From a virus, in IMG/VR virus record IMGVR_UViG_3300034106_003642, positions 1 to 24,355 of that record: a stretch of 24,355 nt of DNA; one strand, given 5' to 3'. The notes under the pieces were generated by a model that had not been told where the DNA came from, did no database searches, and worked only from the letters and a program-made list of their open reading frames with translations. Positions 3,957 to 23,372 of this stretch are shown piece after piece. Position 1 is the stretch's first letter; each line of letters starts with the position of its first letter. The position numbers were made by a program, and so were the translations under genes.

Positions 3957-4018
3957 GGCGCGTCCTCCATGTCAGTCAGTTCCTGTTTGCGTGCTCGGGG
4001 GACGGTGTTTTGGTACAT
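3950..4018 (-). CDS. Possible 22-aa micro-ORF between the zinc-ribbon gene and the tail-anchored protein
   Basis: A short frame encodes MYQNTVPRARKQELTDMEDAPW. It starts inside the 3' part of the zinc-ribbon gene in another frame, and its stop lies within the GTGGTGA that starts the next gene, which suggests translational coupling. A GGGG lies four bases upstream of the ATG, which is a poor spacing. It may only be a relay for ribosomes or chance. Low confidence as a gene. Confidence 0.25.
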   Translation of the reverse strand: MYQNTVPRARKQELTDMEDAPW

Positions 4019-4167
4019 TCTGCCCCGCTCTTCGTAGAATTTGAAGGGCCAATTTTCACGACGTTTTCTTGGGTAGCAAACCTGTGCAGGTTCGCACACT
4101 CCCGACGCCGGCGCCCCTGTCGGCTGTCCAGCACTATCGTCCACGCTCCACATACTGGACATTTCAT
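3976..4167 (-). CDS. NrdR-like zinc-ribbon protein (no ATP-cone)
   Basis: 63 aa. The start ATG at 4167 follows GGAGGTG and overlaps the preceding stop (ATGA); a longer in-frame start at 4233 lacks a ribosome-binding site. The N-terminus reads MKCPVCGAWTIVLDSRQGRRRRECANLHRF: a CPxCG knuckle, an Arg-rich stretch and a second EC-N-x-HRF element, the layout of the NrdR zinc ribbon. The ATP-cone domain that follows in bacterial NrdR (about 150 aa) is absent. Such short versions are frequent in phages; they could bind NrdR boxes or simply nucleic acid. One of the usual four Cys ligands in the second knuckle is replaced by His or lost (C-A-N-L-H). The C-terminal 30 residues look unstructured and overlap the micro-ORF frame. 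Confidence 0.8.
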   Translation of the reverse strand: MKCPVCGAWTIVLDSRQGRRRRECANLHRFATQENVVKIGPSNSTKSGAECTKTPSPEHANRN

Positions 4168-4727: not shown

Positions 4728-4911
4728 ACCGTTCCTTGATCACGCGAGTAATGTCTTTGGGCGTCATGCCCGGGATGGCTGAGATGAGCGCGCACTCCAT
4801 CGCCACTTTCTGCGCGAACTGGCGCATCTCCTTGACCGTCATCACCGCGATCGGCAGCTTCTCTGTGGCCGCGTTGCGGATCATCTCGATCAGCTCGTCA
4901 TCCTTGATCAT
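4708..4911 (-). CDS. Conserved-looking small protein of unknown function
   Basis: 67 aa. The start ATG at 4911 overlaps the helicase stop (ATGA). The sequence begins MIKDDELIEMIRNAATEKLPIAVMTVKEMRQFAQKVAMECA and then has a segment typical of a helix-turn-helix-sized unit (MTPKDITRVIKERYGL). It is too short for a confident fold call. Its coupling to the SNF2-like helicase suggests that both act in the same early process. Function unknown. Confidence 0.78.
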   Translation of the reverse strand: MIKDDELIEMIRNAATEKLPIAVMTVKEMRQFAQKVAMECALISAIPGMTPKDITRVIKERYGLDKN

Positions 4912-6203
4912 TTGAGTTCCTCCATCGCTACGTCACTGAGCGCGCGCTTGTCGTGCAGCGCCGCCCAGATGCGCTCGTCCACGGTCTTGTTGGTCATCAG
5001 GATGTAGGCCCACACATCGCGCGTTTGTCCAGACCGATGGAGCCGTCCGACTGTTTGCTCGAAAAGCTCCAGACTCCACGGCAGGGACAGAAAAACCATG
5101 TGGCATCCACCGTGTTGTAGGTTAAGCCCATGCCCTGCTGATTTTGGGTGCACGGCCAGAACTCGTACCAACCCGGCGTTCCAGCGAGCAATAGCGCCTC
5201 CATCATCCAAAGTAACGAGTCCCTTGATTCGTCGTCTAAGTTCGGCCAGTTCTTCTTGGAACTGATAAACGACAATGGTGTTTGCATGTTGGTTCTCCTG
5301 TAGTAAATCCTCAAGCGCGTCGAACTTGTGGGCGCTGAACCACTGCGCCTCGGGCGTGTACACAAACCCCGACGACATCTGTTGCAGCTTCTGCGTCACC
5401 ACGGCGGCGTTCTGGGCCACGGCCTGCGCGTCGGGGAACTGCACCACGAAGTCCTTCTTCATCTTCTCGTAGGGCTCGCGGTCGTCCAGCTCGACGCGCA
5501 CCTCGACCGTGTGCAGCGGCGGCAGCTTGTCCTTGTAGTCGCCCGGCTCCAGCACGAAGGTGGCCGGCTTGATACGCTCCATGACCTGCGCCAGCGCCCC
5601 CGGGCGCGGCGTCCACTCGTCGTAGCCGCCGTAGGTCGACAGCAGGAAGTACTCCTGCTGGAAGGCGCCCTTGCTGCGGCCCAGCAGCTTCTGGTCGATG
5701 ATCTTGCACTGGCCGAAGACGTCCTCCAGCCCGTTGCTGGTGAACGAGCCGGTCAGGCCCCAACGAATCTTGAATGCGTTGATGACCTTGTGCAGCGCTT
5801 TGAACCGGGCGCCGCTGGGGTTCTTCAGCTTGGTCAGCTCGTCAAACACGACGCCGTCAAAGAGTTCAAGGTTTAGCTCCGACAGCCACTGAAGGTTGTC
5901 GTAATTGATGACCATCACGCTGGTGTCAGCCGCGTAGGCGACCAGACGTTCGCGGGGTGTGCCAACGCAAACGGCCACGGACAGCTCGGGCGCCCACTTT
6001 GGCGCCTCGACCGGCCAGACGTCGGTGCACACGCGCTTGGGGGCGACGACAAGCCAGCGCTTGACGATGCCGTCGCGCACCATGTCGCGCATGGCCGTGA
6101 GCGTGAGCGCGGTCTTGCCGGCCCCCACAGGCGCCAGCACCATCGCCCTATCGTGTTCGTACAGAAAGTCGGCGCCCTGCTCTTGGTAGTCACGCAGCTT
6201 CAC
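4908..6203 (-). CDS. SNF2-like DEAD/DEAH-box helicase (superfamily 2)
   Basis: 431 aa, starting at GTG 6203. The GTG overlaps the upstream stop (GTGA) and has GAGGA in front; a longer frame to 6236 would run into the preceding gene. Visible motifs: Q-like N-terminus LRDYQEQ, Walker A APVGAGKT (24-31), Walker B FDELTKLKN (120-128), motif III LTGSFTSN (150-157), and motif VI QTVGRLHRSGQ (383-393) in the SNF2-like form. These are ATP-dependent DNA translocases. In phage early operons they usually accompany VRR-NUC nucleases, as here, and are thought to act in replication or recombination. Motif III reads GSFTSN where most relatives have GTPxxN. The family assignment is firm; the cellular job is inferred. 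Confidence 0.93.
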   Translation of the reverse strand: MKLRDYQEQGADFLYEHDRAMVLAPVGAGKTALTLTAMRDMVRDGIVKRWLVVAPKRVCTDVWPVEAPKWAPELSVAVCVGTPRERLVAYAADTSVMVINYDNLQWLSELNLELFDGVVFDELTKLKNPSGARFKALHKVINAFKIRWGLTGSFTSNGLEDVFGQCKIIDQKLLGRSKGAFQQEYFLLSTYGGYDEWTPRPGALAQVMERIKPATFVLEPGDYKDKLPPLHTVEVRVELDDREPYEKMKKDFVVQFPDAQAVAQNAAVVTQKLQQMSSGFVYTPEAQWFSAHKFDALEDLLQENQHANTIVVYQFQEELAELRRRIKGLVTLDDGGAIARWNAGLVRVLAVHPKSAGHGLNLQHGGCHMVFLSLPWSLELFEQTVGRLHRSGQTRDVWAYILMTNKTVDERIWAALHDKRALSDVAMEELK

Positions 6204-6406
6204 AGCATGTCCTCGATCAGTTTGGCGAGCGCCCACAAATCGGGCTTGCTGACGCCGGCGTCGACACCCTTGGCGCTGCGCTGAATCTCACGGATGATGC
6301 GGGCGCGCTCTTCTTTGCAGGCCGCCAGCGCCAGCTCGACCTCAACAATGTCTGGATGCCGCTGAAACTTGTCCCACGACAGTTTGTCAATCTCATTTTC
6401 GGTCAT
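6200..6406 (-). CDS. Small helical protein of unknown function
   Basis: 68 aa, with ATG at 6406 overlapping the upstream stop (ATGA) and its own stop overlapping the helicase start (GTGA). The sequence is acidic at the N-terminus (MTENEIDKLSWDKFQRHPDIVEVELALAACKEERARIIREIQRSAKG) and is predicted helical. It is sandwiched between a Cys-rich protein and the SNF2-like helicase with translational coupling on both sides, so it may work with the helicase. I do not recognise a family. Confidence 0.78.
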   Translation of the reverse strand: MTENEIDKLSWDKFQRHPDIVEVELALAACKEERARIIREIQRSAKGVDAGVSKPDLWALAKLIEDML

Positions 6407-6627
6407 GCTGCTGCCTCTTTATTGTTTGCAACAGCCGGCGTTGTGGTGGGGTACGGCGCGGCGTAGTCAGGGCATTCGCCGTGGCCGACCCACGGGTGCA
6501 TCCAGACTTGCCAGACGCTGTCAGAAGAAAGGGGGTAGACGTTGACGTTGCGGCGGCAGTCTTTGCACTGCTCGCGCCGGGGGTGGCCTTCGCAACGCGG
6601 AAAAGGTCTAGGCAGATACGATCTCAC
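6403..6627 (-). CDS. Small Cys/His-rich, probably zinc-binding protein
   Basis: 74 aa, starting at GTG 6627 with GGAG eight bases upstream and a 20-nt overlap with the VRR-NUC gene. The motif C-x2-H-x5-C-x2-C (RCEGHPRREQCKDCRR, residues 12-26) looks like a zinc knuckle. A Trp-rich segment (VWQVWMHPWVGHGEC) follows with further His and Cys, then a low-complexity tail. It is probably a small metal-binding protein of the early operon. I cannot name a function. Confidence 0.75.
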   Translation of the reverse strand: MRSYLPRPFPRCEGHPRREQCKDCRRNVNVYPLSSDSVWQVWMHPWVGHGECPDYAAPYPTTTPAVANNKEAAA

Positions 6628-6901
6628 GCTGGCGCTCCTTGATCCATTCGTTGACTTGCTCTTTCGACCACAGACAGACGTAGTTCTGGCGCAGCCGCGC
6701 CATGTCTGACTGAAACACCTGTTGCAAAGGTGACAGCCGGCCGTTGGGGGCTTTCAGCTCGACGAACCATGTGCTGCCGTCGGGCAGACACACGACCCGG
6801 TCGGCCACGCCTCGATTGGCCGGGCTGACGAACTTATAGGCCGCGCCGCCAAGATGGCGCACGCTCCTGACGAAGTGGGCTTCAATGTCTTTTTCAAGCA
6901 T
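6608..6901 (-). CDS. VRR-NUC domain nuclease
   Basis: 97 aa, first gene of the leftward operon. It carries the PD-(D/E)XK-type signature of VRR-NUC proteins: E6 in the first helix, G31-V-A-D34-R, then F-V-E48-L-K50-x-P-x-G-x-L-S-P-x-Q60. The size fits stand-alone phage VRR-NUC proteins, which have been described as structure-specific endonucleases that can act on Holliday junctions. The operon also holds an SNF2-like helicase, a common phage pairing. There is no Shine-Dalgarno sequence before the ATG, and the promoter -10 box ends only eight bases upstream, so the mRNA is probably leaderless. Confidence 0.92.
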   Translation of the reverse strand: MLEKDIEAHFVRSVRHLGGAAYKFVSPANRGVADRVVCLPDGSTWFVELKAPNGRLSPLQQVFQSDMARLRQNYVCLWSKEQVNEWIKERQREIVSA

Positions 6902-6908
6902 GGCGGCG

Positions 6909-6937
6909 ATTATGCACTGTCAAAAAGTTCTTGACAA
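6909..6937 (-). promoter_or_regulatory. Leftward early promoter for the VRR-NUC operon
   Basis: On the minus strand TTGTCA (6937-6932) and CATAAT (6914-6909) are separated by 17 bp; each is one mismatch from the sigma-70 consensus. Transcription should start at about 6901-6904, at or a few bases before the ATG at 6901. It overlaps the rightward promoter at its -35 region. Confidence 0.65.
6918..6936. promoter_or_regulatory. 19-bp dyad, candidate operator between divergent promoters
   Basis: TGTCAA and TTGACA form perfect 6-bp arms around a 7-bp centre (AAAGTTC) that is itself largely symmetric. The right arm is the -35 box of the rightward promoter, and the dyad fills the spacer of the leftward promoter. 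A protein bound here would affect both. A related copy (16/19 identical) sits at 17164-17182. Confidence 0.5.
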
Positions 6938-6958
6938 CCCCTTTCTGTGTGCTAGGAT
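6931..6958 (+). promoter_or_regulatory. Rightward promoter for the replication operon
   Basis: A perfect -35 TTGACA (6931-6936) and a -10 TAGGAT (6953-6958) are separated by 16 bp. Transcription would begin near 6965 and give a leader of about 25 nt with TGGAG before the ATG at 6989. This is a strong host sigma-70 type promoter, consistent with early expression. Confidence 0.65.
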
Positions 6959-6988
6959 CGAGTCCTCATCAGTCAACTGGAGTACAGG

Positions 6989-8095
6989 ATGCAACACAGC
7001 AAGATCGTCGGCGGCAGTACCGCCAAGCGCGTCATCAACTGCCCCGGCAGTGTGGCGCTGGTTCAGAAGATGCCTCCACAAGTGGAGAGTAAGTACGCGG
7101 CCGAGGGCACGCTGTTGCACGAGTGCATGGAAGTCGTGTTGGCCGACAACGACGACGCTGATGCGCTGGCGCGCTACAACCTCACCGATGAGCAGCTCGC
7201 CAAGGTGGAGTTCTGCGTCGACGCGCTCGACCAGATTGACCCCGACATGAAGATGATCTTCAACCAAGAAGTCGAGGTCGAGTTCAAAGGTGTCAAGGGC
7301 CTTGAGGGCGTCTTCGGCAACGTCGACCTGATCGGCCGCCTCGGCGACCGCGCCATCATCCTCGATTGGAAGTTCGGCGACGGCGTCATGGTCGAGGCCG
7401 AAGAGAACCCGCAGGGCCTGTTCTACGCCGCTGCTGCGCTCCAGACCGACGCCACCAAGTGGGCGTTCCAAGGCGCCAAGGAAATCGAGATCGTCATCGT
7501 GCAGCCGTTCAATGTGCGCCGCTGGGTGACGACCTTCCAGCGTCTGAACGAGTTCATCGCCGAGTTGCAACAGGCCGTCAAGCTGTCCAAGAAGGCCGAC
7601 GCGCCGCTCGCCATTGGCGATTGGTGCCGCTGGTGCACCGGCAAACCCATCTGCCCCCAGATGACCGGCGCCATCGACCGCACCGTGCACATGAAGCTGG
7701 AGGCGCTGCCGCCCGAACAACTGGCTGCCGCGCTGGAGCTGGCCGACAAGCTGGAGTCGTTCATAGCCGACGCACGCAAGCTGGCGCAGGAGCGGCTTGA
7801 GAAAAACATGCCCGTGCCCGGGTACAAACTTGTAGCGAAGCGCGCCACGCGCCAGTGGGTCAACGAGGACAAGGCGGCCAAGGCGCTGATCGTGCTGGAC
7901 GTTGATCCGTTCAAGCAGGAAATCATTTCACCAGCGGCTGCGGAAAAGCTGCTGAAAAAGAGCAAGCTGGCGCTGCCCGACGACCTTGTCGTGGCAGTGT
8001 CGAGCGGCAGCACGTTGGCGCCGGAGAGCGATCCCCGGCCCGCCGTGCTTAACGTCGGGACGCAACTTGTTGCGGCCCTTTCTAAACTCCAGTAA
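6989..8095 (+). CDS. Cas4/RecB-like PD-(D/E)XK nuclease with Fe-S-type cysteines (DUF2800)
   Basis: 368 aa, ATG at 6989 with TGGAGT upstream. Motifs follow the RecB/Cas4 nuclease order: AEGTLLH44E, then GNVD113LIG, D126-W-K128 and Q142-xxx-Y146 (NPQGLFYAAA). One cysteine (C18, NCPGS) lies at the N-terminus and three more (C213, C216, C222 in WCRWCTGKPIC) lie after the core. This split of one plus three is the iron-sulphur staple of Cas4, AddB and related exonucleases. I recall this phage family as DUF2800. It heads the replication operon, followed by a probable ssDNA-binding protein and the DNA polymerase. Likely role: processing DNA ends for recombination-dependent replication, or degrading host DNA. 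The nuclease fold is firm; the substrate is inferred. Confidence 0.92.
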   Translation: MQHSKIVGGSTAKRVINCPGSVALVQKMPPQVESKYAAEGTLLHECMEVVLADNDDADALARYNLTDEQLAKVEFCVDALDQIDPDMKMIFNQEVEVEFKGVKGLEGVFGNVDLIGRLGDRAIILDWKFGDGVMVEAEENPQGLFYAAAALQTDATKWAFQGAKEIEIVIVQPFNVRRWVTTFQRLNEFIAELQQAVKLSKKADAPLAIGDWCRWCTGKPICPQMTGAIDRTVHMKLEALPPEQLAAALELADKLESFIADARKLAQERLEKNMPVPGYKLVAKRATRQWVNEDKAAKALIVLDVDPFKQEIISPAAAEKLLKKSKLALPDDLVVAVSSGSTLAPESDPRPAVLNVGTQLVAALSKLQ

Positions 8096-8106
8096 GGAAG
8101 ACAGTC

Positions 8107-8751
8107 ATGTCAAATCTCGTTACGTTCAGTCAAGCAAACCTCCCCGCAGTTGCAAGCCTCTCCACGGCGCTGCGTTCACTTGAAAAGGAAGTCGGCCCCT
8201 CCGGCGTCGTCCTTCTCAAGATGGACAAGACCGGCCACTGGGTCTTTGGCGCCGATCAGACCGAAGTCGAAGACAACGCGACTTGGGCCGTCAATCCCTT
8301 CTCTTTCGTCCACGGCTTCATTGCTTGGGGCGACGGTGAAGTGCTTGGCGAGAAGATGGTTTCTGTGTCGCAACCGCTGCCCGAACTTGATGCCGCCCCG
8401 CCCAACGCCAAGCGCGGGTGGGAGACGCAAGTGGGCATGTCGCTGAAGTGCCTCAGCGGCGAAGACGAAGGCATGGAAGCGCGCTATACGACCACCTCGG
8501 TGGGCGGCAAGCGCAGCGTCCAGACCCTCGCGCTGGCGATCGCAGCACAGGTTGAGAAGGATCAGTCCAAACCCGTCCCCGTGGTGCGCCTCAAGAAGGA
8601 TCACTACACGCACAAGAGCTACGGCAAGATTTTCACGCCGGTGTTTGAAGTCGTGGAGTGGGTCGGCATGGATGGCAAGGTCGAAGAAGAGAAGGCAGCC
8701 GAGGCCCCTGCGGCCGAGGAAGCCCCTCGCCGTCGTCGTCGCGCTGCGTGA
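8107..8751 (+). CDS. Phage early protein, possible ssDNA-binding protein
   Basis: 214 aa, ATG at 8107 after AAGGAAGAC, 11 bp past the nuclease gene. The central part is beta-rich, with sections such as GPSGVVLLKMDKTGHWVFGADQ and KRSVQTLALAIAAQVEKDQSKP. The C-terminus is a charged tail with acidic EEEKAAEAPAAEEAP followed by RRRRRAA. I do not see a named domain. Position between a RecB-like nuclease and PolA is typical of phage ssDNA-binding or annealing proteins, and the tail resembles the flexible tails of such proteins, although it ends in arginines instead of an acidic tip. The gene is certain; the function is an inference from neighbours. Confidence 0.88.
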   Translation: MSNLVTFSQANLPAVASLSTALRSLEKEVGPSGVVLLKMDKTGHWVFGADQTEVEDNATWAVNPFSFVHGFIAWGDGEVLGEKMVSVSQPLPELDAAPPNAKRGWETQVGMSLKCLSGEDEGMEARYTTTSVGGKRSVQTLALAIAAQVEKDQSKPVPVVRLKKDHYTHKSYGKIFTPVFEVVEWVGMDGKVEEEKAAEAPAAEEAPRRRRRAA

Positions 8752-8759
8752 GGTGGGTC

Positions 8760-8927
8760 ATGTTGATCAACCTACACGTCAGTGAAATCAACGCGGCCAT
8801 CGCCCTGTTCTCAGGTGTGGCCGAGAAGATTCGCGAGCAAGCAATTGCTCAGTCGATGCCGCCGCAGCCGGCGCCCGAGCCCAGCATTCCAACTGCTGAG
8901 ATCGTGCCGGCCAACGAGGCCAAGTGA
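8760..8927 (+). CDS. Small protein of unknown function
   Basis: 55 aa, starting at ATG 8760 with GAGGTGGGT just upstream; longer frames back to 8658 lie inside the preceding gene. The sequence begins MLINLHVSEINAAIALFSGVAEKIREQAIAQSM, an amphipathic helix, and ends with a Pro/Ala/Glu-rich tail. No family is recognised. It precedes a strong terminator hairpin. Confidence 0.65.
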   Translation: MLINLHVSEINAAIALFSGVAEKIREQAIAQSMPPQPAPEPSIPTAEIVPANEAK

Positions 8928-8933
8928 GTCGAG

Positions 8934-8966
8934 GGCCACGGTCGAAAGGCCGTGGCCTTTTTCTTT
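8934..8966 (+). terminator. Intrinsic terminator or attenuator within the replication operon
   Basis: A perfect 8-bp stem GGCCACGG / CCGTGGCC (8934-8941 and 8950-8957) with an 8-nt loop is followed by TTTTTCTTT. It lies between the 55-aa gene and the genes leading to DNA polymerase. It may end some transcripts and lower polymerase and primase expression relative to the nuclease and binding protein. Confidence 0.8.
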
Positions 8967-8978
8967 CTGGAGAAAGCC

Positions 8979-9167
8979 ATGTCCCATCCCTACCAAGACC
9001 TTTGCCATCTGCTGCGCGAGTACAGCATGGCCTGCGACGCCTGTGACGACGACGGCGCGCTGAAGACTGCCATGCAGATTCGTCAGGCCGCGCACCAGCT
9101 CGTTGTGCAGGCCGCCAAGAACACCCAGCCCCCTACCGACCCGCGCCAACTGGAGCTGCCCCTGTGA
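8979..9167 (+). CDS. Small protein upstream of and coupled to DNA polymerase
   Basis: 62 aa, starting at ATG 8979 with GGAG at 8969-8972; an in-frame start at 8952 lies inside the terminator hairpin. The sequence is helical (MSHPYQDLCHLLREYSMACDACDDDGALKTAMQIRQAAHQLVVQAAKN, in part) with Cys at 8, 18 and 21. Its end overlaps the polymerase start (GTGA). Function unknown. A role as translational coupler or small partner of the polymerase is possible. Confidence 0.72.
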   Translation: MSHPYQDLCHLLREYSMACDACDDDGALKTAMQIRQAAHQLVVQAAKNTQPPTDPRQLELPL

Positions 9168-11119
9168 GCATCCTGTGGGTCGACTTTGAGACGCGCAGCC
9201 GGTGCGACCTGCCGGCTCGCGGCGTCTACAACTACGCGCAGGACGGCAGCACTGAGGTGCTGTGCATGTCCTACGCCTTCGACGACGATGAGGTCGTGAC
9301 GTGGCAGCCGGGCCAGCCTTTCCCCGAGTCTGTGCGCCAGCACACGGGCCAGATCAGGGCCCACAACGCTGCCTTTGAGCGCCTCATTTTCTGGTACGTC
9401 CTTCAGATCGACTTCGATCTGGAGCAGTTCTACTGCACCGCCGCGCAGGCGCGCGCCAACTGCGCGCCGGGCAGCCTTGAGGATGTGGGTCGCTTCGCCT
9501 CGGCCGACATGAAGAAGGACTACCGTGGCGCGCAGCTCATCCGTCTGTTGTCGCTGCCGCAGGCCGACGGCAGCTTCCGCGAGGACGCCGCGCTGCTGGC
9601 CGAGATGATCGCCTACTGCGAGCAGGACGTGCGCGCCATGCGTGCTGTCTCCAAGGCCATGCGCGACTTGAGCGCCGAGGAGCTGTTCGACTATCACGTC
9701 AACGAGCGCATCAACGACCGTGGCGTGCTGGTGGACGTCGACCTGTGCAAGGCCGCCGTCAAGTACGCCAGCGAGGAGCTGGTCGAGATCGAAGAGATCG
9801 TGGCCGACGTCACCCAAGGCGAGGTCGCCAGCGTGCGCTCGCCCAAGATGCGCGAGTGGGTGCTGGAGCGCGTCGGCGACGAGGCCAAGAAGATGATGAC
9901 CGTCTACAAGGACGGCGAGAAGAAGTTCAGTATCGACAAGACAGTCCGCGCCAACCTGCTGGTGCTGGCCGAGGAGAACCCCGATGAAATCCCGCCGGAT
10001 GTTGCTGAAGTCATCCAGTGCGCCGACGACCTCTGGGCGTCGTCGGTTGCGAAGTTCAGCCGCCTTGCTGCTCTCGCAGACGAAGAAGATCACCGCGTCC
10101 GGGGAGCCTTTGTTTTTGCGGGTGGATCAGCTACGGGACGGGCCTCGTCCTACGGCGCTCAGGTTCACAACTTTACCCGGAAGGTCGCGGCAGCCCCCGA
10201 GGACGTACGTCATGCAATGGTCAGAGGTCATGGCATTGTCCCGAAGTTCGGAAAGCGAGTGACCGACGTTCTGAAGGGAATGCTTCGTCCTGCGCTTGTG
10301 CCGGCGCCGGGGCATGTGCTGATCGTAGCCGATTGGTCTGCCATCGAGGCCCGGATGAACCCGTGGCTGTCGGCCGACCCGACGTCCGAGGCCAAGCTCG
10401 ACCTGTTCCGCAAGAACGAGGACGTCTACAAGCACAACGCCAGCCGCACATTCCACGTCCCGGTCGAGGAGATCGACAAGGATCAGCGCCAGATCGGCAA
10501 GGTGCAGGAGCTGGCCTGCGGCTACGGCGGCGGCGTGGGCGCCTTCGCTGCGATGGGCCGCATCTACGGCGTTCACTTACCCGAGTCTGACGCCCGCCGG
10601 ATGGTCGACGCATGGCGCCGCGCCAACCCGTGGGCCGTGACGTATTGGCAGAAGCTGGAGTCGGCTTACACCCGGGCGATGCGCCACAAGGGGCACGAGT
10701 TCCACGCCGGCCGGGTCGTCTACATGTACGACGGCCAGCACCTGTGGTACGCGCTGCCCTCGGGCCGTGTCTTGTGTTACCCCTATGCCCGGCTGGAAGC
10801 CGACGGGGTATCCTATGCCAAGGCGTCGTGGAAGCCCGCAGCCGACGCCAAGGAGTGGCCGCGAGCGCGGCTGTGGAAGGGTCTGGCTTGCGAGAATATC
10901 ACGCAGGCTGCGGCCAACGATGTGCTGCGCCATTCACTGCGCCAGCTCGACGGTAACGTCGTGCTGCATGTGCATGACGAGATCGTGCTGGAGGTGCCCG
11001 AGTCAACCTCAGACGCAGCGGTGCAGACGCTGCATGAGGTGATGTGCGCCCCGCCAAAATGGGCAACCGGCCTGCCCTTGGAGGCCGAAGTCAATGTGAT
11101 GAAACGATACGGGAAGTAG
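9164..11119 (+). CDS. Family-A DNA polymerase with 3'-5' exonuclease domain
   Basis: 651 aa, starting at GTG 9164, which overlaps the previous stop. Exonuclease domain: Exo I VD7FE9T, Exo II AHNAAFER (66-73) and Exo III Y151CEQD155. Polymerase domain: motif A VAD390WSAIEAR, motif B R442-xxx-K446-x7-Y454G, motif C H604-D605-E606. It lacks the N-terminal 5'-nuclease domain of bacterial Pol I, as expected for a phage replicase. It should copy the phage genome together with the primase-helicase that follows 3 bp downstream. All catalytic residues are in place. In Exo II the usual acid is Glu (NAAFE), a substitution I recall as common in this phage polymerase group. Confidence 0.96.
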   Translation: MSILWVDFETRSRCDLPARGVYNYAQDGSTEVLCMSYAFDDDEVVTWQPGQPFPESVRQHTGQIRAHNAAFERLIFWYVLQIDFDLEQFYCTAAQARANCAPGSLEDVGRFASADMKKDYRGAQLIRLLSLPQADGSFREDAALLAEMIAYCEQDVRAMRAVSKAMRDLSAEELFDYHVNERINDRGVLVDVDLCKAAVKYASEELVEIEEIVADVTQGEVASVRSPKMREWVLERVGDEAKKMMTVYKDGEKKFSIDKTVRANLLVLAEENPDEIPPDVAEVIQCADDLWASSVAKFSRLAALADEEDHRVRGAFVFAGGSATGRASSYGAQVHNFTRKVAAAPEDVRHAMVRGHGIVPKFGKRVTDVLKGMLRPALVPAPGHVLIVADWSAIEARMNPWLSADPTSEAKLDLFRKNEDVYKHNASRTFHVPVEEIDKDQRQIGKVQELACGYGGGVGAFAAMGRIYGVHLPESDARRMVDAWRRANPWAVTYWQKLESAYTRAMRHKGHEFHAGRVVYMYDGQHLWYALPSGRVLCYPYARLEADGVSYAKASWKPAADAKEWPRARLWKGLACENITQAAANDVLRHSLRQLDGNVVLHVHDEIVLEVPESTSDAAVQTLHEVMCAPPKWATGLPLEAEVNVMKRYGK

Positions 11120-11122
11120 ACG

Positions 11123-13450
11123 ATGACAACAAAACAGGCAACTTTGAAATTTCTGGAGTTCTTGCAATCACTGGCGCCCGAGGGAGAGACGGCGCTGATC
11201 GTCAGGCAGAAACCGCAGCTCAAGGATGGCGAGATGCAGTTTCACCCAGACGGTGCGATCAAGTGCACATGGCCGGCGTACCTGCCGGACATCAAACGGG
11301 TCAAAGAGGATCAGGCGTGGTACGGCAATACCGCGTCCTTCATCATCGACCGATTCCAAGACGGAAAGACAAGCGCATCAGCAGCAAATTGTGAGTACTG
11401 TCTCGCGCTGGTGCTGGATGATATCGGAACCAAGAGCAAGGCGCCACCGCTGGAGCCGACGTGGAAGATGGAGACGTCGCCGGGGTCGTTCCAGTGGGGC
11501 TACGCCTTCAGCGACGACCAGCCGACCAAGGGTGAGTTCGCGGCGGCTATCAAGGCCATCGCCGACGCCGGCTACACCGACCCGGGCGCGCTCAACCCTG
11601 TGAGAAATTTCCGACTGCCGGGCAGTATAAATTTGAAGCCGGGTCGGAATAACTTCGCCGCGCAGCTCGTGGAGTTCAACCCGCAACGCGAGTTCACGCT
11701 GCCGGAAATCTGCGCTGCTCTGGGCGTGGCGCCGGCCGAGGCCGACAGCGCCAGCTACAAGCCCATCCGCGTGGCCGACACCGGCAACGACGACGTGTTC
11801 AAGTGGCTGGCCGACAACGGGTTGGTGCTGTCCAAACCCAACGCCGAGGGCTGGGCCGGCGTCATCTGCCCCAACGGCAAGGAGCATACCGACGGCAACC
11901 CCGAGGGGCGCTACCTGCCGGCCACGCGGGCCTATTGCTGCCTGCACAGCCACTGCATCGACTTCGACACCAAGACCTTCCTGCAATGGGTGGCCGACAA
12001 CGGCGGCCCGAAGCACGACCCGGGTTTCCGCGACGATCTGATCGCCAGCACGATGCAGGCCACGCTGGAGAAGCTGGAGCCCAACGATTTTTTCTCGGAC
12101 GACGCGGTCAAGGTCATCGAAGAAGTTGAGCGCAAGGAGCTGGGCCGCGTCGAGAAGGCCGGCTGGTATGAGCGTTTCGCCTACGTCATGTCAGACAACG
12201 CCTACTTCGACATGCAGGACAGGCGCGAGATCGCGCGCAGCTCGTTCGACGCCCTGTTCCGGCACATCTCCTGCCGCAGCATCCACAACGGCCGCAAGAT
12301 CGAAGCATCTACCTGCTTTGACGAGAACCGGCAGGCCAGCGGCGCCCGCACCTTGGTCGGCATCACCTACGCCGCCGGCGAGTCGGTTCTGGTGGCGCGT
12401 GACGGCGACGTCTACGGCAACCGCTGGCGCGACGCCCGGCCCGAGGTGGACAAGTCAGGCATGGCCGACGTCACGCCGTGGCTGGAGCATTGCGCGATGC
12501 TGGTGCCCGAGCTGGCCGAGCGCGAGCATCTGTTCAACGTCATGGCCTACAAGGTGCAGCACCCCGAGGTCAAGATCAACCACGCCGTGCTGCACGGCGG
12601 CGATCAGGGCTGCGGCAAGGACACCCTGTGGGCGCCGTTTATCTGGGCCGTCTGCGGCCCGGGCATGAAGAACCGGGGCCTGCTGGACAACGACACGCTG
12701 AACAACCAGTGGGGCTACGCGCTGGAGTCGGAGATTCTGATTCTCAACGAGCTGAAGGAGCCCGAGGCGTCCGCGCGGCGTGCGCTGGCGAACAAACTCA
12801 AGCCCATCATTGCGGCGCCGCCGGAGATGTTGTCTGTGAACCGTAAGGGTTTACACCCATACGACATGGTGAACCGCATGTTCGTGTTGGCGTTCTCCAA
12901 CGACCCTGTGCCGATCTCGATCGACAGTCAGGATCGGCGCTGGTTCTGTGTGTGGTCGGCAGCGCCGCGCATGGACGCGGAGAAGGCGCAGGCGCTGTGG
13001 AACTGGTACAAGGGCGGCGGCTTTGAGGCCGTGGCCGGCTGGTTGCACGCCCGTGACGTAGCAGCGTTCAATCCGTCGGCTGCGCCAGCGTGGACTGAGT
13101 TCAAGGCCAACCTCGTCGAGCATGGCATGTCGATGGCCGAGAGCTATCTGGTCGACCTGATGCGCGAGCGCAAGGGTGAGTTCGCCAAGGGCGTGGTCGG
13201 CTCGCCGTTCCATGCGCTGTGCGACCGTCTGGCTGGCGCTGCGCCGTCGGGCGTCAAGGTGCCGCAGGCCGCGCTGCTGCACGCGCTCAAGGAGGCCGGC
13301 TGGGTGGACATGGGCCGGATCGCGTCGGGCGAGTTGACGTCGAAGAAGAACATCTTCTGCGCGCCAGACATGATCGGGAAGGTGTCCAAGTCGGAAATGC
13401 GCCGGCTGGTGGAAGAGTCGCCGATGCCGCGCATGGCGCTCGTGAAATAG
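11123..13450 (+). CDS. Primase-helicase (archaeo-eukaryotic-type primase region plus DUF5906-type helicase)
   Basis: 775 aa, ATG at 11123 with GGGAAG overlapping the polymerase end. The N-terminal region (about 90-200, with VLDDIGTK and RNFRLPGSINLK) resembles the primase part of phage/plasmid primase-polymerases. A zinc-binding-like segment follows (C249, H255, then YCCLHSHC at 271-278). The C-terminal half is a superfamily-3-like helicase: Walker A GGDQGCGKDT (492-501), Walker B ILILNE (538-543), FSNDPVPI (591-598) and DRRWF (604-608), as in DUF5906 proteins. It should unwind DNA and lay primers for the adjacent polymerase. The helicase call is firm; the primase call rests on general similarity. 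The stop is immediately followed by tandem repeats. Confidence 0.92.
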   Translation: MTTKQATLKFLEFLQSLAPEGETALIVRQKPQLKDGEMQFHPDGAIKCTWPAYLPDIKRVKEDQAWYGNTASFIIDRFQDGKTSASAANCEYCLALVLDDIGTKSKAPPLEPTWKMETSPGSFQWGYAFSDDQPTKGEFAAAIKAIADAGYTDPGALNPVRNFRLPGSINLKPGRNNFAAQLVEFNPQREFTLPEICAALGVAPAEADSASYKPIRVADTGNDDVFKWLADNGLVLSKPNAEGWAGVICPNGKEHTDGNPEGRYLPATRAYCCLHSHCIDFDTKTFLQWVADNGGPKHDPGFRDDLIASTMQATLEKLEPNDFFSDDAVKVIEEVERKELGRVEKAGWYERFAYVMSDNAYFDMQDRREIARSSFDALFRHISCRSIHNGRKIEASTCFDENRQASGARTLVGITYAAGESVLVARDGDVYGNRWRDARPEVDKSGMADVTPWLEHCAMLVPELAEREHLFNVMAYKVQHPEVKINHAVLHGGDQGCGKDTLWAPFIWAVCGPGMKNRGLLDNDTLNNQWGYALESEILILNELKEPEASARRALANKLKPIIAAPPEMLSVNRKGLHPYDMVNRMFVLAFSNDPVPISIDSQDRRWFCVWSAAPRMDAEKAQALWNWYKGGGFEAVAGWLHARDVAAFNPSAAPAWTEFKANLVEHGMSMAESYLVDLMRERKGEFAKGVVGSPFHALCDRLAGAAPSGVKVPQAALLHALKEAGWVDMGRIASGELTSKKNIFCAPDMIGKVSKSEMRRLVEESPMPRMALVK

Positions 13451-13567
13451 AAAAACGGGAGCGTCGCCCTGTGGAAAAACGGGAGCGTCGCCCTGTGGAA
13501 AAACGGGAGCGTCGCCCTGTGGAAAAACGGGAGCGTCGCCCTGCAAAAAACGGGAGCGTTGCCCTGC
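13451..13567. repeat. Five tandem ~24-bp repeats after the primase-helicase gene (iteron-like)
   Basis: Units begin at 13451, 13475, 13499, 13523 and 13545. The core is AAAAACGGGAGCGTCGCCCT; units 1-3 end in GTGG and are exact, unit 4 is 22 bp and unit 5 has one T substitution (GTTGCC). Because 24 is a multiple of three, the repeats make long open frames in several frames on both strands, which should not be taken as genes. The place, directly after the replication genes, fits initiator-binding iterons. Confidence 0.85.
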
Positions 13568-13869
13568 AAGAATCCATGCGTGGCGCCCCCCGCGTCACCC
13601 GGGGCCGGGCCGGCGGCCGGTCAGTGGGCGCTCACTTCGTCGGCCGTCAGTGTGCGCTCACTTCGGCCGGCCGGCGGCCGCGCGCCGTCGGCGGCCAGCT
13701 CGACGGCCGGCGGCCAGCTCGGCCAGCTCGACGGCCGGCGGCCAGCTCGACGGCCGCGCGCCGGGGCCGTGGCGGCCGCTCAGGGCCGCGCAGCAGCTCG
13801 GCCGGGGCCGTGGCCCGGGCAGCAGCTCGCCGGCGCGCTGGCGGCCGCGTGGCGGCCCGGCCGGGGCAT
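13568..13869. other. GC-extreme non-coding stretch with CGGCC/CAGCTCG repeats
   Basis: About 300 bp with no supportable gene. It holds two near-palindromes (listed separately), then repeated blocks of GGCGGCCAGCTCGACGGCC (13690-13708 and 13737-13755, with a related block between) and several GCAGCAGCTCG words. The open frames here arise from the lack of A/T-rich stop codons. It separates two convergent operons. Confidence 0.6.
13623..13662. repeat. Pair of near-palindromes related to AGTGAGCGCTCACT
   Basis: AGTGGGCGCTCACT (13623-13636) and AGTGTGCGCTCACT (13649-13662), 26 bp apart, both followed by TCG. Two further members lie at 17898-17934, on the other edge of the GC-skewed block. Confidence 0.6.
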
Positions 13870-16860: not shown

Positions 16861-17088
16861 TCAGTAGCCGCGCTCGACGGCCCAGCTCGTGATGCGCTCG
16901 ATCGTCGACGCCGGCACGCGACGCGGTCGGCCGCTGCGGTCTTCCAGCTCGCCGGTCGCGTCGAGCGCGGCCAGCGACGCCGAATAGTGCGTGCCCCGGT
17001 CGTTGAAATCGACGAAGCACTCGGTCGTCTCGCCGGTCGTATCCAGCTCGACAAGGTAACCGCTGATGATGGTGGTCGCTTGAGTCAT
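16861..17088 (-). CDS. Small protein, first gene of the GC-skewed leftward operon
   Basis: 75 aa, starting at ATG 17088 with GAAGGGG upstream. A longer frame to 17169 includes the promoter region and is rejected. The protein reads MTQATTIISGYLVELDTTGETTECFVDFNDRGTHYSASLAALDATGELEDRSGRPRRVPASTIERITSWAVERGY (in pieces), a small beta-rich N-terminus followed by a helix. No family is recognised. It is the promoter-proximal gene behind the operator-like dyad at 17164-17182. Confidence 0.75.
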   Translation of the reverse strand: MTQATTIISGYLVELDTTGETTECFVDFNDRGTHYSASLAALDATGELEDRSGRPRRVPASTIERITSWAVERGY

Positions 17089-17140: not shown

Positions 17141-17182
17141 AGTGTCAGCGAACCGGCCGACCTTGTCAAGAATTCTTTTACA
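17141..17182 (-). promoter_or_regulatory. Leftward promoter with operator-like dyad
   Basis: On the minus strand TTGACA (17169-17164) and a weak -10 GACACT (17146-17141) are 17 bp apart, about 50 nt before the ATG at 17088. The -35 box is the right arm of a 19-mer (17164-17182) that is identical at 16 of 19 positions to the dyad at 6918-6936, including the block TTCTTGACAA. Confidence 0.55.
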
Positions 17183-17479
17183 TTCCCGACAATGCCGAAG
17201 GGTTATTATCGTTTGGCGTTGGGTCGTTTGGGTCGTTTGGGTCATGGGGCCGCCGGAGCTGGTGAACAGCTCGCCGGCAGCAGCTCGCGCAGCGCGGCCG
17301 CCAGCGCGGCCAGCTCGCGCGCTCGTTTGGGTCAGATTGTCGGGTCGTTTGGGTCATGGTTCGGTCATGGTTTGGCGCCCCCATGACCCAAACGTAAACC
17401 CGCGCCAGAGCTGGGGAAAGTCGAGGGTTTGGGTCGTTTCGGTCATGTTTTTAGCTAGAGCAAAATCAAAACCTAAAAG
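17183..17479. repeat. Non-coding control region with GGGTCGTTTGGGTCATGG repeats
   Basis: No convincing gene. Copies of a GTTTGGGTC-type motif occur at 17221-17247 (tandem), 17322-17334, 17342-17359 and 17431-17447, and another at 17660-17677. An inverted copy CCATGACCCAAACG lies at 17381-17394. On the minus strand each spells ATGACCCAAACGACC, so several chance frames begin MTQTTQ. A 30-aa frame (17446 to 17354, MTETTQTLDF...) just left of the LexA-type box lacks a ribosome-binding site. Confidence 0.6.
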
Positions 17480-17499
17480 TACTGTATAGAAGAACAGTA
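17480..17499. promoter_or_regulatory. LexA/SOS-box-like site
   Basis: TACTGT and ACAGTA are perfect inverted 6-mers separated by eight A/T-rich bases (ATAGAAGA), the exact CTGT-N8-ACAG geometry of LexA boxes of Gamma- and Betaproteobacteria, including the flanking TA/TA. It lies in an AT-rich island inside a very GC-rich region. The regulated gene is not clear: no strong promoter or adjacent gene is seen on either side. Confidence 0.6.
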
Positions 17500-17540
17500 G
17501 GGTAAACGAGCATGTCAGTCGCCAGCGATTGAAACTTGAT

Positions 17541-17706
17541 GACCTAATGACCTAATTGACCCAATGGGCCGCGCCGACGATCGGCGCCAGAGCTGGCGGT
17601 TTGGGGCTCGAAACCGGGCCCCGGCCCCCAGCTCTGCAAAAATCCAGAGCTGGCGGTTTGGGTCGTTTGGGTCATGGCCGGCAGCTCGACCCAATTGACC
17701 CAATGG
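17541..17706. repeat. GACCYAATT iteron-like repeats
   Basis: Direct repeats GACCTAAT (17541), GACCTAATT (17549) and GACCCAATGG (17558) are followed by GACCCAATT (17688) and GACCCAATGG (17697). The block GACCYAATTGACCCAATGG is thus present twice, about 139 bp apart. No gene is seen between them; the words CCAGAGCTGGCGGTTTGG also occur twice (about 17586 and 17644). Confidence 0.55.
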
Positions 17707-17733
17707 CCGACGAGCTGGCGGCCGGCAGCAGCT

Positions 17734-17768
17734 CGGCCCCGGCCCCGGCCCCGGCCCCGGCCCCGGCC
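17734..17768. repeat. (CGGCCC)n hexanucleotide microsatellite
   Basis: Five full CGGCCC units and a partial sixth, inside a non-coding GC-rich stretch. Such runs are prone to slippage and length variation. Confidence 0.8.
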
Positions 17769-17897
17769 GCGAGCTGGCCGGCCGTCCGGGCATGGCGCCA
17801 GCAGCTCGGCGCGCGGCCGAAAGGGAATGGAAAGGGCCCCGGCCAGCAGCTCGGCGGCCAGCTCGCGGCCGTCGGCGATCGGCCGGCAGCTCGGCGA

Positions 17898-20761: not shown

Positions 20762-23013
20762 TGGCAACGATCAACCAAGACCCCACAGGTATCGAAGGCG
20801 CAGGCAAGGTGTCTGCGCGCGGCGGGCCTGACCAGAAGGATCACCGCGACACGCTCCAGCTCATGCGCGACCGGCTGCGGCAAGCCATCGGCGCGTACTC
20901 GGAAAGCCGCGAGCATGAGCTGGACGACCTGCGCTTCATGGCCGGCTCGCCCGACAACCAGTGGCAGTGGCCGCAGGACGTGCTGGCGACTCGGGGCTCG
21001 GTGCAAGGCCAGACCGTCAACGCGCGGCCATGCCTGACCATCAACAAGCTGCCGCAGCACGTCCGTCAGGTGACGAACGAGCAGCGCCAGAACCGCCCCA
21101 GCGGCAAGGTGATCCCGGTCAACGATCAGGCCGACGTCGAGGTGGCCGAGGTGCTGGACGGCATCGTGCGGCACATCGAGTACATGTCGGACGCCGACGT
21201 GGCCTACGACACGGCCTGCGAGAACCAAGTCACCTACGGCGAGGGCTACATTCGCTTGCTGACCGAGTACTGCTACGAGGACAGCTTCGATCAGGACATC
21301 AAGATCGCCCGCGTGCGGAACAGTTTCAGCGTCTACATGGATCCGCTAATCCAAGACCCCTGCGGGGCAGACGCCGAGTGGTGCTTCATCACTGAAGACC
21401 TGCTCAAGGAAGACTACCAGCGCATGTACCCCAACGCTGCGCCGCTGTCGTCCATCATGGCGCAGGGCATCGGCGACCAAGACATCAGCCAGTGGATCAC
21501 CGAAGACACGATCCGCATCGCCGAGTACTTCTACATCAGCCACAAAGAAGACACGCTGTACCTGTACCCGGGCAATCAGTCCGTGTTCAAAGGCTCGCCG
21601 CAGGACAAAACGCTGCGTGCAATGGGGCTCACACCCATCCGCGAGCGCCGCGTCGACCGCAAGCGCGTCATGTGGATGAAGACCAACGGATTTGAGGTGC
21701 TGGAAGAGCGCGAGTGGGCCGGCAGTTGGATTCCCGTCGTGCGCGTGGTGGGCAACGAGTTCCAAGTCGACGGCCGCATCTTCATCTCCGGCATCGTCCG
21801 CAACGCCAAAGACGCCCAGCGGATGTACAACTACTGGACGAGCCAAGAGGCCGAGATGCTGGCGCTGGCTCCGAAGGCCCCCTTTATTGGCTACGGCGGC
21901 CAGTTTGAGGGCTACGAGTACCAGTGGAAGACGGCCAACACCCAGAACTGGCCCTATCTAGAGGTCAATCCTGACGTCACAGACGGCTCAGGAAGCGTTT
22001 TGCCGTTGCCGCAGCGTGCCGCCCCTCCGCTGCCCCAAACCGGCCTCATACAGGCCAAAATGGGCGCCTCTGAGGACATCAAGACAACCACGGGTCAATA
22101 CGATGCGTCTCTCGGCCAAGTGTCCAACGAGCGCTCGGGCAAAGCCATCTTGGCTCGCGAGCGCCAAGCAGACGTAGGAACCTATCACTATGTGGATAAT
22201 CTGGCCCGCGCTGTTCGCTATGTTACTCGCCAGTTGGTGGATTTGATCCCGAAGATTTACGACACCCAGCGCATCGCCCGAATCATCGGGATCGACGGCG
22301 AAACCAACATGGTCAAGATCGACCCGACTCAGCCCGAGCCGGTCAAGAAGATCGTCGATCAGGCCGGCATCGTCATCGACAAGATTTACAACCCGTCCGT
22401 GGGCCGTTACGACGTCGTCGTGACCACCGGCCCGAGCTACATGACCAAGCGTCAGGAAGCGATGGACGCGATGAGCCAGATTCTGCAAGGCAACCCCACG
22501 CTATGGGCTGTGGCCGGCGATCTGTTCGTCAAGAACATGGATTGGCCGGGCGCTCAGGAGATGTCTGCGCGGTTGCGGAAGACGATCGACCCCAAACTGC
22601 TCGCCGACACCGACAACGACCCCGCCTTGCAGGCCGCTCAGAAGCAGATCGAGGCGATGGGCCAAGAGATGCAGCAGATGTACAACATGCTGATGAACGT
22701 CAATCAGTCTGTTGAGGCTCGGGACATCCAGATTCGCGAGTTTGAGTCCAAGATCAAGGCATTCGACGCTGAAACCAAGCGCATCTCGGCCACGATGGCC
22801 GGCATGACAATGGAGCAGATTCAAGACATCGTCATGGGTACCATTGCCGCAGCTCAGGACATGGGTGATTTGCTCCCGCCGCAGCAGATGATGGGCCCAA
22901 TCATGGAAAACCCACAGTATGAAGGCATGGAATCTTCCGAAGTAGAGCGTCAGGAAGAGGCCCAGCAGGCCACCCCAATGCCAGACGTCGTGCCGCAAGG
23001 AGGCCAAGCATGA
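20761..23013 (+). CDS. Portal protein (P22-like)
   Basis: 750 aa, ATG at 20761 overlapping the previous stop. The sequence shows the P22-type portal pattern: a helical N-terminus (ESREHELDDLRFMAGSPDNQW), NARPCLTINKLPQHVRQVTNEQRQNRP, VTYGEGYIRLLTEY, and the later RQADVGTYHYVDNLARAVRYVTRQLVDLIPKIYD and VVTTGPSYMTKRQEAMDAM segments, in which short strings are enough to recognise it. The length fits P22-like portals (about 700-750 aa). A coiled-coil-rich C-terminus (residues about 620-700) may form a barrel. It is the dodecameric channel for packaging and ejection. Confidence 0.94.
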   Translation: MATINQDPTGIEGAGKVSARGGPDQKDHRDTLQLMRDRLRQAIGAYSESREHELDDLRFMAGSPDNQWQWPQDVLATRGSVQGQTVNARPCLTINKLPQHVRQVTNEQRQNRPSGKVIPVNDQADVEVAEVLDGIVRHIEYMSDADVAYDTACENQVTYGEGYIRLLTEYCYEDSFDQDIKIARVRNSFSVYMDPLIQDPCGADAEWCFITEDLLKEDYQRMYPNAAPLSSIMAQGIGDQDISQWITEDTIRIAEYFYISHKEDTLYLYPGNQSVFKGSPQDKTLRAMGLTPIRERRVDRKRVMWMKTNGFEVLEEREWAGSWIPVVRVVGNEFQVDGRIFISGIVRNAKDAQRMYNYWTSQEAEMLALAPKAPFIGYGGQFEGYEYQWKTANTQNWPYLEVNPDVTDGSGSVLPLPQRAAPPLPQTGLIQAKMGASEDIKTTTGQYDASLGQVSNERSGKAILARERQADVGTYHYVDNLARAVRYVTRQLVDLIPKIYDTQRIARIIGIDGETNMVKIDPTQPEPVKKIVDQAGIVIDKIYNPSVGRYDVVVTTGPSYMTKRQEAMDAMSQILQGNPTLWAVAGDLFVKNMDWPGAQEMSARLRKTIDPKLLADTDNDPALQAAQKQIEAMGQEMQQMYNMLMNVNQSVEARDIQIREFESKIKAFDAETKRISATMAGMTMEQIQDIVMGTIAAAQDMGDLLPPQQMMGPIMENPQYEGMESSEVERQEEAQQATPMPDVVPQGGQA

Positions 23014-23372
23014 AATGCGCTGATTTTGTCGGCATGTTGTTCCTAGCGCGCGATGTAGCGCACTCGGTGCACCTCAATACCCGGAGTTTCTCCAAACACA
23101 TGGCTTTAGGCACGTTCTACGACGAAATCGTTGATCTGGCCGATAAGTTTGCTGAGGCGTACCAAGGAAAACACGGCCTGATCGGCCCGATTTCCTTGAT
23201 GAACGCCCGCAAAACGTCGAACATCACGGAGTTTCTCCAAGATCAAGTCGACGAGATCGAAAAGGTGCGGTACGAGGTGTGTGACAAGACTGAAACCGCG
23301 TTGCAAAATATCATCGACGAGATTGTCGGGCTGTACCTCAGCACGCTCTACAAACTCCGGTTCTTGGCATAA
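23010..23372 (+). CDS. DUF5856-family phage protein
   Basis: 120 aa, ATG at 23010 overlapping the portal stop (ATGA). The sequence starts MKCADFVGMLFLARDVAHSVHLNTRSFSKHMALG and goes on with FYDEIVDLADKFAEAYQGKHGLIGPI. The pattern H-x3-T-x-S-x3-H-x2-L with FYDEI resembles the DUF5856 family of phage proteins, which I recall as ferritin/Dps-like four-helix folds. Histidines and acids could suggest metal binding, but no activity is established. It sits in the head gene cluster. Confidence 0.85.
   Translation: MKCADFVGMLFLARDVAHSVHLNTRSFSKHMALGTFYDEIVDLADKFAEAYQGKHGLIGPISLMNARKTSNITEFLQDQVDEIEKVRYEVCDKTETALQNIIDEIVGLYLSTLYKLRFLA

Follow-up and report, generated by a model that had tools for sequence, protein, structure and literature searches.

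A conserved back-to-back pair of predicted promoters with overlapping -35 hexamers and a predicted leaderless arm between two divergent phage replication operons

Two operons diverge from a short intergenic region of the window, the whole stretch of 24,355 nucleotides of viral DNA that we analysed. The initial annotation had named divergent replication and VRR-NUC operons, and searches against Pfam and PHROGs profiles place a nuclease and an SNF2-like helicase on the left and a DUF2800 protein, a DNA polymerase A and a primase-like protein on the right:

4908..6236, minus strand: SNF2/DEAD-like helicase of the leftward operon (PF00176, 2.1e-12; phrog_62, 4.3e-129)
6608..6901, minus strand: VRR-NUC-type endonuclease of 97 aa, first leftward gene (phrog_93 endonuclease, 6.7e-26; phrog_5702 Holliday junction resolvase, 4.3e-8)
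6989..8095, plus strand: DUF2800 exonuclease-like protein, first rightward gene (PF10926, 2.9e-56; phrog_69 exonuclease, 1.1e-68)
8107..13450, plus strand: rest of the rightward operon (Pfam and PHROGs profile matches), comprising the following three
8107-8751, plus strand: match to phrog_9528, labelled nucleotidyltransferase
9164-11119, plus strand: DNA polymerase A
11123-13450, plus strand: primase-like DUF5906 protein

The first leftward gene gave no Pfam match at 0.001; the name VRR-NUC, which comes from the initial annotation and not from the profile matches, is presumptive. The true start of the helicase may lie further inside its frame. Short tandem units occupy 13450-13570, just 3' of the primase gene, with EKRERRPV repeated in the translation. 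The window yielded no tRNA, and no RNA family at gathering threshold.

A record of 36,951 bases (G001, bearing the relative locus L002) is identical to the window across compared stretches of 6680, 751 and 3752 bases and additionally has genes for the head, packaging, tail fibres and DNA ejection; the phage is presumably podovirus-like. The 127 bases at 17676-17802 match both ends of G001, which therefore carries a direct terminal repeat, and the window spans the junction; this is consistent with a circular or permuted genome. In a DNA similarity search of window positions 6300-8300 against named phages no match was found. Twelve relatives were located in bacterial assemblies. Seven of them come from contigs assigned to betaproteobacterial bins, a single Rhodoferax bin accounting for two; the remaining bins are labelled Mucilaginibacter, Beijerinckiaceae, proteobacterium, actinobacterium and Woeseiaceae. 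Such binning is weak evidence of the host.

Between the two first genes, a rightward TTGACA-16-TAGGAT and a leftward TTGTCA-17-CATAAT stand back to back at 6909-6958, and our scan recovered both divergent promoters just where they had been proposed. In each direction the hexamers match 10 of 12 positions and are TTGACA- and TATAAT-like, at the 16-18 nt spacing of sigma70-type promoters. The elements of the region are as follows:

6901..6902, minus strand: predicted leftward transcript start, on the A of the start codon or one base ahead of it (from the spacing between -10 and ATG and its conservation)
6909..6914, minus strand: leftward -10 hexamer CATAAT (sequence, scan, spacing in relatives)
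6918..6936, no strand: imperfect dyad TGTCAAAAAGTTCTTGACA of 19 bp, possible operator, pairing at 8 of 9 arm positions
6922..6926, plus strand: A-tract, possible UP element, upstream of the rightward -35 and within the leftward spacer (T at offsets 11-15 in relatives)
6931..6936, plus strand: rightward -35 hexamer TTGACA (sequence, scan; relatives)
6932..6937, minus strand: leftward -35 hexamer TTGTCA (sequence, scan; heptamer in relatives)
6953..6958, plus strand: rightward -10 hexamer TAGGAT (sequence, scan)
6964..6966, plus strand: predicted rightward transcript start, leader of about 24 nt (from the position of the -10)
6979..6982, plus strand: Shine-Dalgarno-like GGAG before the DUF2800 ATG at 6989 (sequence)

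TG at 6950-6951, followed by C, precedes the rightward TAGGAT and makes it an extended -10. The -10 hexamers of the two promoters are separated by 38 bases, and the predicted start sites by about 63 bp. The -35 boxes had been described as sharing the same seven bases; seven is the length that they span together (6931-6937), and only five bases (6932-6936) belong to both. The label "early" given to the promoters is presumptive.

Promoter-like matches are scarce around the locus: the scan of 5500-8500 returned two, both belonging to this pair, and no other promoter-like site, against a mean of 0.3 (sd 0.6) in 50 shuffles. Across the whole window five sites were listed at 9/12 or better, and only the two of this pair reach 10. 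Simulation of 300 windows (first-order Markov, 1000-base blocks) never produced an overlapping divergent pair in which each member reached 10/12 or better, and four of the windows had one at 9/12. Conservation among relatives is stronger support for the pair than these chance statistics.

Relative loci were gathered by two scans of viral contigs, from which the best 80 of 231 and the best 80 of 320 were kept (160 loci, with three contigs in both). The first genes are divergent and at most 400 bp apart in 105 of these 160 loci, 401-1500 bp apart in 39 and 1.6-2.1 kb apart in five, and one gene is missing in 11; in none of the 149 loci with both genes do they lie on one strand. In MW202483.1, the nearest named record, the genes are also divergent, but by eye there is no -10 at 7 nt. 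The 105 loci and the window gave 83 distinct sequences in 31 clusters at 80% identity, which are related and not independent, the clustering only lessening their kinship. This set holds the pairs within 400 bp, and the 44 wider divergent pairs (35 distinct) were looked at separately. For the promoter-region comparison of the first 80 loci 77 were used, with L011, L013 and L038 left out because the match lay too near a contig end. More than 200 bp separates the two starts in 48 of the 83 sequences, the usual source, judged by eye, being an extra gene seemingly ahead of DUF2800 or VRR-NUC.

Searched for up to 62 nt from the leftward start, the heptamer TTGTC[A/C]A is present in 49 of the 83 distinct sequences and 15 of the 31 clusters, and the other 16 clusters lack it over that distance. 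In the clusters that carry it (type A), T stands at each of offsets 11-15 after the heptamer with a weighted frequency of 0.93-1.00; ahead of the heptamer, at offsets -8 to -4, the most frequent base is A (0.60-0.86, weighted). Each of these two A-rich stretches is upstream of one -35 and inside the spacer of the opposite promoter. When the top-scoring leftward and rightward promoters were chosen separately, their -35 hexamers had five or more bases in common in 47 of 83 sequences and, by majority, in 14 of 31 clusters. Among the rows listed with a five-base -35 overlap the arm scores differ by at most 2.6 units (window, 12.9 right and 11.2 left; L003, 11.6 and 13.3), and since the score weights are approximate only a rough balance of the arms is to be read from them.

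Several relatives depart from this form. In L069 the core is TGTTGACA-N6-TGTCAACA or one base off, and by eye the same holds for L032, L062 and L163; this variant core is a palindrome of two facing -35 boxes, and the start in L069 has a leader and a Shine-Dalgarno sequence. Among the 35 distinct larger-gap loci three (L052, L055, L070) show a clear TTGCAC-17-TAAAGT-7-ATG, the pattern used there requiring TTG in the -35 and missing L076. The element is real and widely kept, and not every relative fits it.

The same conservation bears on the improbable reading that this AT-rich region is chiefly an origin of replication flanked by divergent replication genes, with the promoter matches secondary or serving to prime replication. 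GC content falls to 0.46 in 6905-6960 from 0.63 in the whole window and the cumulative GC-skew reaches its minimum at 6436, about 0.5 kb off, as an origin might have it, but the skew is small and also expected from the divergent gene orientation, and the 56-nt stretch ranks only 823rd of 24299 in AT content, many others being as AT-rich. Moreover, what is conserved tracks the promoter hexamers and their spacing.

The strongest signal and most informative feature of the locus is the leftward arm, which the initial annotation did not mention as leaderless. In the window 7 nt separate the end of the leftward -10 from the ATG at 6901, and by eye no Shine-Dalgarno sequence precedes this ATG. A -10 lying 6-8 nt before the start codon without a Shine-Dalgarno sequence is expected of a leaderless gene, and the leftward mRNA is therefore predicted to be leaderless. 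Of the 83 sequences, 31 have the motif [T/C]AnnnT ending 7 nt short of the leftward start and 30 have it ending 6 nt short (61 together), and a -10 is found at 6-8 nt, by majority, in 22 of 31 clusters. The cluster-weighted frequency of the motif is 0.56 at 7 nt and 0.15 at 6 nt, with a mean of 0.03 over the other 42 gaps, the highest of which is 0.15 at 22. In 19 of the 31 clusters the top-scoring leftward promoter likewise has a -10 in the range of 6-8 nt. In a contrast set of further distinct upstream sequences, in which DUF2800 is more than 400 bp away or absent from the locus (156 loci, L144 left out; the place of VRR-NUC within its operon was judged by eye), a -10 at 6-8 nt occurs in 1 of 33, versus 61 of 83. 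This suggests that the spacing would go with the promoter and not with the gene.

These observations also bear on the very unlikely explanation that one promoter, right or left, is real and the opposite match a by-product of symmetry. TTGACAA is inherently near-palindromic and so supplies a reverse -35 match for free; against a single promoter stand the leftward -10, whose position 6-7 nt from the start codon is conserved in its own right, and the lack of any further promoter-like site in 5500-8500.

The spacing is kept where other parts of the region have changed. Ten sequences (L140, L143, L152, L157, L071, L138, L145, L150, L139, L158) have a different promoter core, an extended -10 pair (TAGCACA...TGTGCTA) with the start codon nearer the core, and still read TAAACT-7-ATG. 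An in-frame ATG or GTG further upstream, 7 nt beyond TAAAGT, may be where VRR-NUC starts in the L036, L043 and L058 groups, which would add 6-10 residues to the protein. In L035, L042, L051, L053 and L049 another open reading frame begins at the 7-nt position. A -10 at 6-8 nt of the chosen start is lacking in 22 of the 83 sequences, 16 of which have an alternative start at 7 nt, a post hoc count, as the alternative starts in changed settings were noticed in the data and not predicted beforehand. Six sequences (L046, L069, L079, L135, L151, L161) fit no version of the spacing; the heptamer is nevertheless present in L151 and L161, the latter also having TATACA at 7 nt. As a separate observation, the ATG 7 nt after TAAAGT in L034 and L080 opens just 8 and 11 codons, too few for the spacing to serve a normal-sized leaderless gene in these two; these frames could be short 5'-terminal leader-like reading frames, such as have been described for E. 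coli in PMC4965119, or a decayed start.

The rightward arm is built differently, with its predicted leader and GGAG. Where DUF2800 is the first gene within 120 bp, an SD-like motif (one motif, one distance) precedes the rightward start in 34 of 35 cases versus 7 of 35 for the leftward start. Neither predicted 5' region folds better than shuffled sequences (z -0.51 and 0.47).

We consider it probable that the element is a bidirectional promoter for the host sigma70 polymerase, Shine-Dalgarno-led to the right and leaderless to the left, giving roughly balanced transcription of one replication module. The main (sigma70-type) host RNA polymerase would use this compact two-way promoter through its near-palindromic 7-bp element, TTGTCAA one way and TTGACAA the other, which would act as the -35 for both directions, the polymerase binding in a single orientation at a time. 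The rightward mRNA would carry a short SD-bearing leader into the exonuclease-like/polymerase/primase operon and the leftward mRNA would begin directly with the first start codon of the nuclease/helicase operon, the mode of translation setting the protein ratios. Coordinated, roughly balanced transcription is the likely role, as the two operons are parts of a single replication module and their promoters look similarly strong. More tentatively, the element might be a ratio device that needs no regulator, in which polymerase orientation at the shared -35 would split transcription, SD-led versus leaderless translation would set dose and timing, and selection would hold the geometry across a large phage group despite replaced start codons, first genes and promoter type.

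The initial annotation held that polymerase cannot sit on both promoters at once, and this is what the overlap of the -35 boxes predicts, since two polymerases could not then occupy both; steric exclusion at overlapping promoters is stated in PMC4207663 and PMC12825309. Its further statement, that the operons should compete or be set by one switch, is not supported as worded: competition depends on promoter strength in E. coli, no regulator was found among the 36 proteins scanned and the arms look similar. As reported in PMC12825309, five E. coli bidirectional promoters tested were too weak at basal level to compete, competition being seen only once one direction was strengthened; four of the five strengthened promoters then behaved as expected, bdcR being the exception for activation. 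Given near-consensus hexamers both ways, some competition is plausible in the phage. A switch, as cited in PMC4207663, needs unequal promoters and a differentially acting regulator, neither of which was found at this locus.

The dyad TGTCAAAAAGTTCTTGACA leads to the unlikely alternative of a regulated switch, in which it would be an operator whose repressor, from the phage or the host, would block the two -35 regions and shut both operons or favour one. Eight of its nine arm positions pair, and its TTGAC left arm, needed by neither hexamer, is kept in 10 of 15 type A clusters; the arm is lost in the other five, the dyad is altered in other types, and ten other window positions equal its score. 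The core motif (at most three mismatches) stands at a single place in five of seven relative records, as a single-operator repressor would have it, and the same count led us to reject a multi-site repressor operator; of the remaining two records, that of L002 has it at two places and one has none. A candidate regulator, a stand-alone NrdR-like zinc ribbon protein of 63 aa (3979-4167, minus strand; PF22811, 32.2 bits against a cut-off of 27.2), is encoded within the leftward operon, at its far end; it was rejected as the switch, the zinc ribbon pattern occurring in just 12 of 174 sequences scanned (173 loci and the window, duplicates included, many being too short to reach the gene). No integrase or CI/Cro-type match was obtained among 36 proteins scanned against PHROGs, a part of the open reading frames, and in place of a regulator gene beside the divergent promoters, as in lambda or pLS20, the first genes on both sides match replication enzymes. 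Because both operons serve replication, balanced co-expression from a bidirectional promoter is the more economical reading. In the structural region, 23010-23369 on the plus strand encodes a protein of 120 aa with a phrog_858 match labelled starvation-inducible transcriptional regulator.

Among known systems, the E. coli bidirectional promoters, as described in PMC12825309 and PMC10268837, resemble the phage pair in having a short near-symmetric element, two orientations of binding and mutual exclusion, which in the phage is predicted from geometry. They share a -10, with start sites 7-25 bp and mostly 18 bp apart, whereas the phage promoters share a -35 and their predicted starts are far more widely spaced, which places them outside a Warman-type definition (shared -10, divergent starts 7-25 bp apart); and basal activity in the five cases reported was too low for competition, whereas both phage hexamer pairs are near consensus. 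The Pc/Pr pair of pLS20 also consists of divergent overlapping promoters at which one polymerase excludes the other, but according to PMC4207663 the -10 of each is presumed to coincide with the other's -35, the two promoters differ in strength, and Rco, a regulator that the divergent gene encodes, acts with DNA looping, a kind of regulator that was not found among the phage proteins scanned. The cI-cro regions of lambda and PY54 likewise have divergent phage genes and leaderless mRNA (cI of lambda, cI and cro of PY54, as given in PMC4488713; predicted in our phage), but there repressor genes flank operators, whereas here the genes encode replication enzymes and an operator is only a candidate. 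The leftward arm recalls Deinococcus-Thermus, where TANNNT a few bases before the start codon yields leaderless mRNA; in the accessible text of PMC12340547 these are cellular genes of another phylum that are not described as bidirectional, whereas the phage has a full -35 and -10 both ways. In the openly licensed literature we found no phage case with a shared -35, by which we do not claim absence from print, and no report combining a shared -35, a leaderless arm and replication genes. The element is a variant of known overlapping or bidirectional promoters, with a predicted leaderless arm.

The bacterial bidirectional promoters described in the papers cited here are built on a shared -10. This phage group builds on a shared -35, and its 49 distinct heptamer sequences offer a natural variant series for testing when opposed polymerases compete. 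If the leaderless arm is true, the phage would use the mode of translation to set the dose of nuclease and helicase against that of polymerase, and gene starts such as the upstream in-frame start in the L036 group would have to be read in this light.

Two further features lie elsewhere in the window. A second site, TTGTCAAGAATTCTTTTACA, occupies 17163-17182; read on the minus strand, it carries TTCTTGACA, which is spaced 17 nt from a weak GACACT, and the ATG at 17088, with an SD-like stretch of its own, lies downstream. Repeats of TTTGGGTCGTTTGGGTCAT and its inverse TGACCCAA, which could be iterons, extend over 17205-17710 around an AT-rich patch at 17407-17583 with GC down to 0.30.
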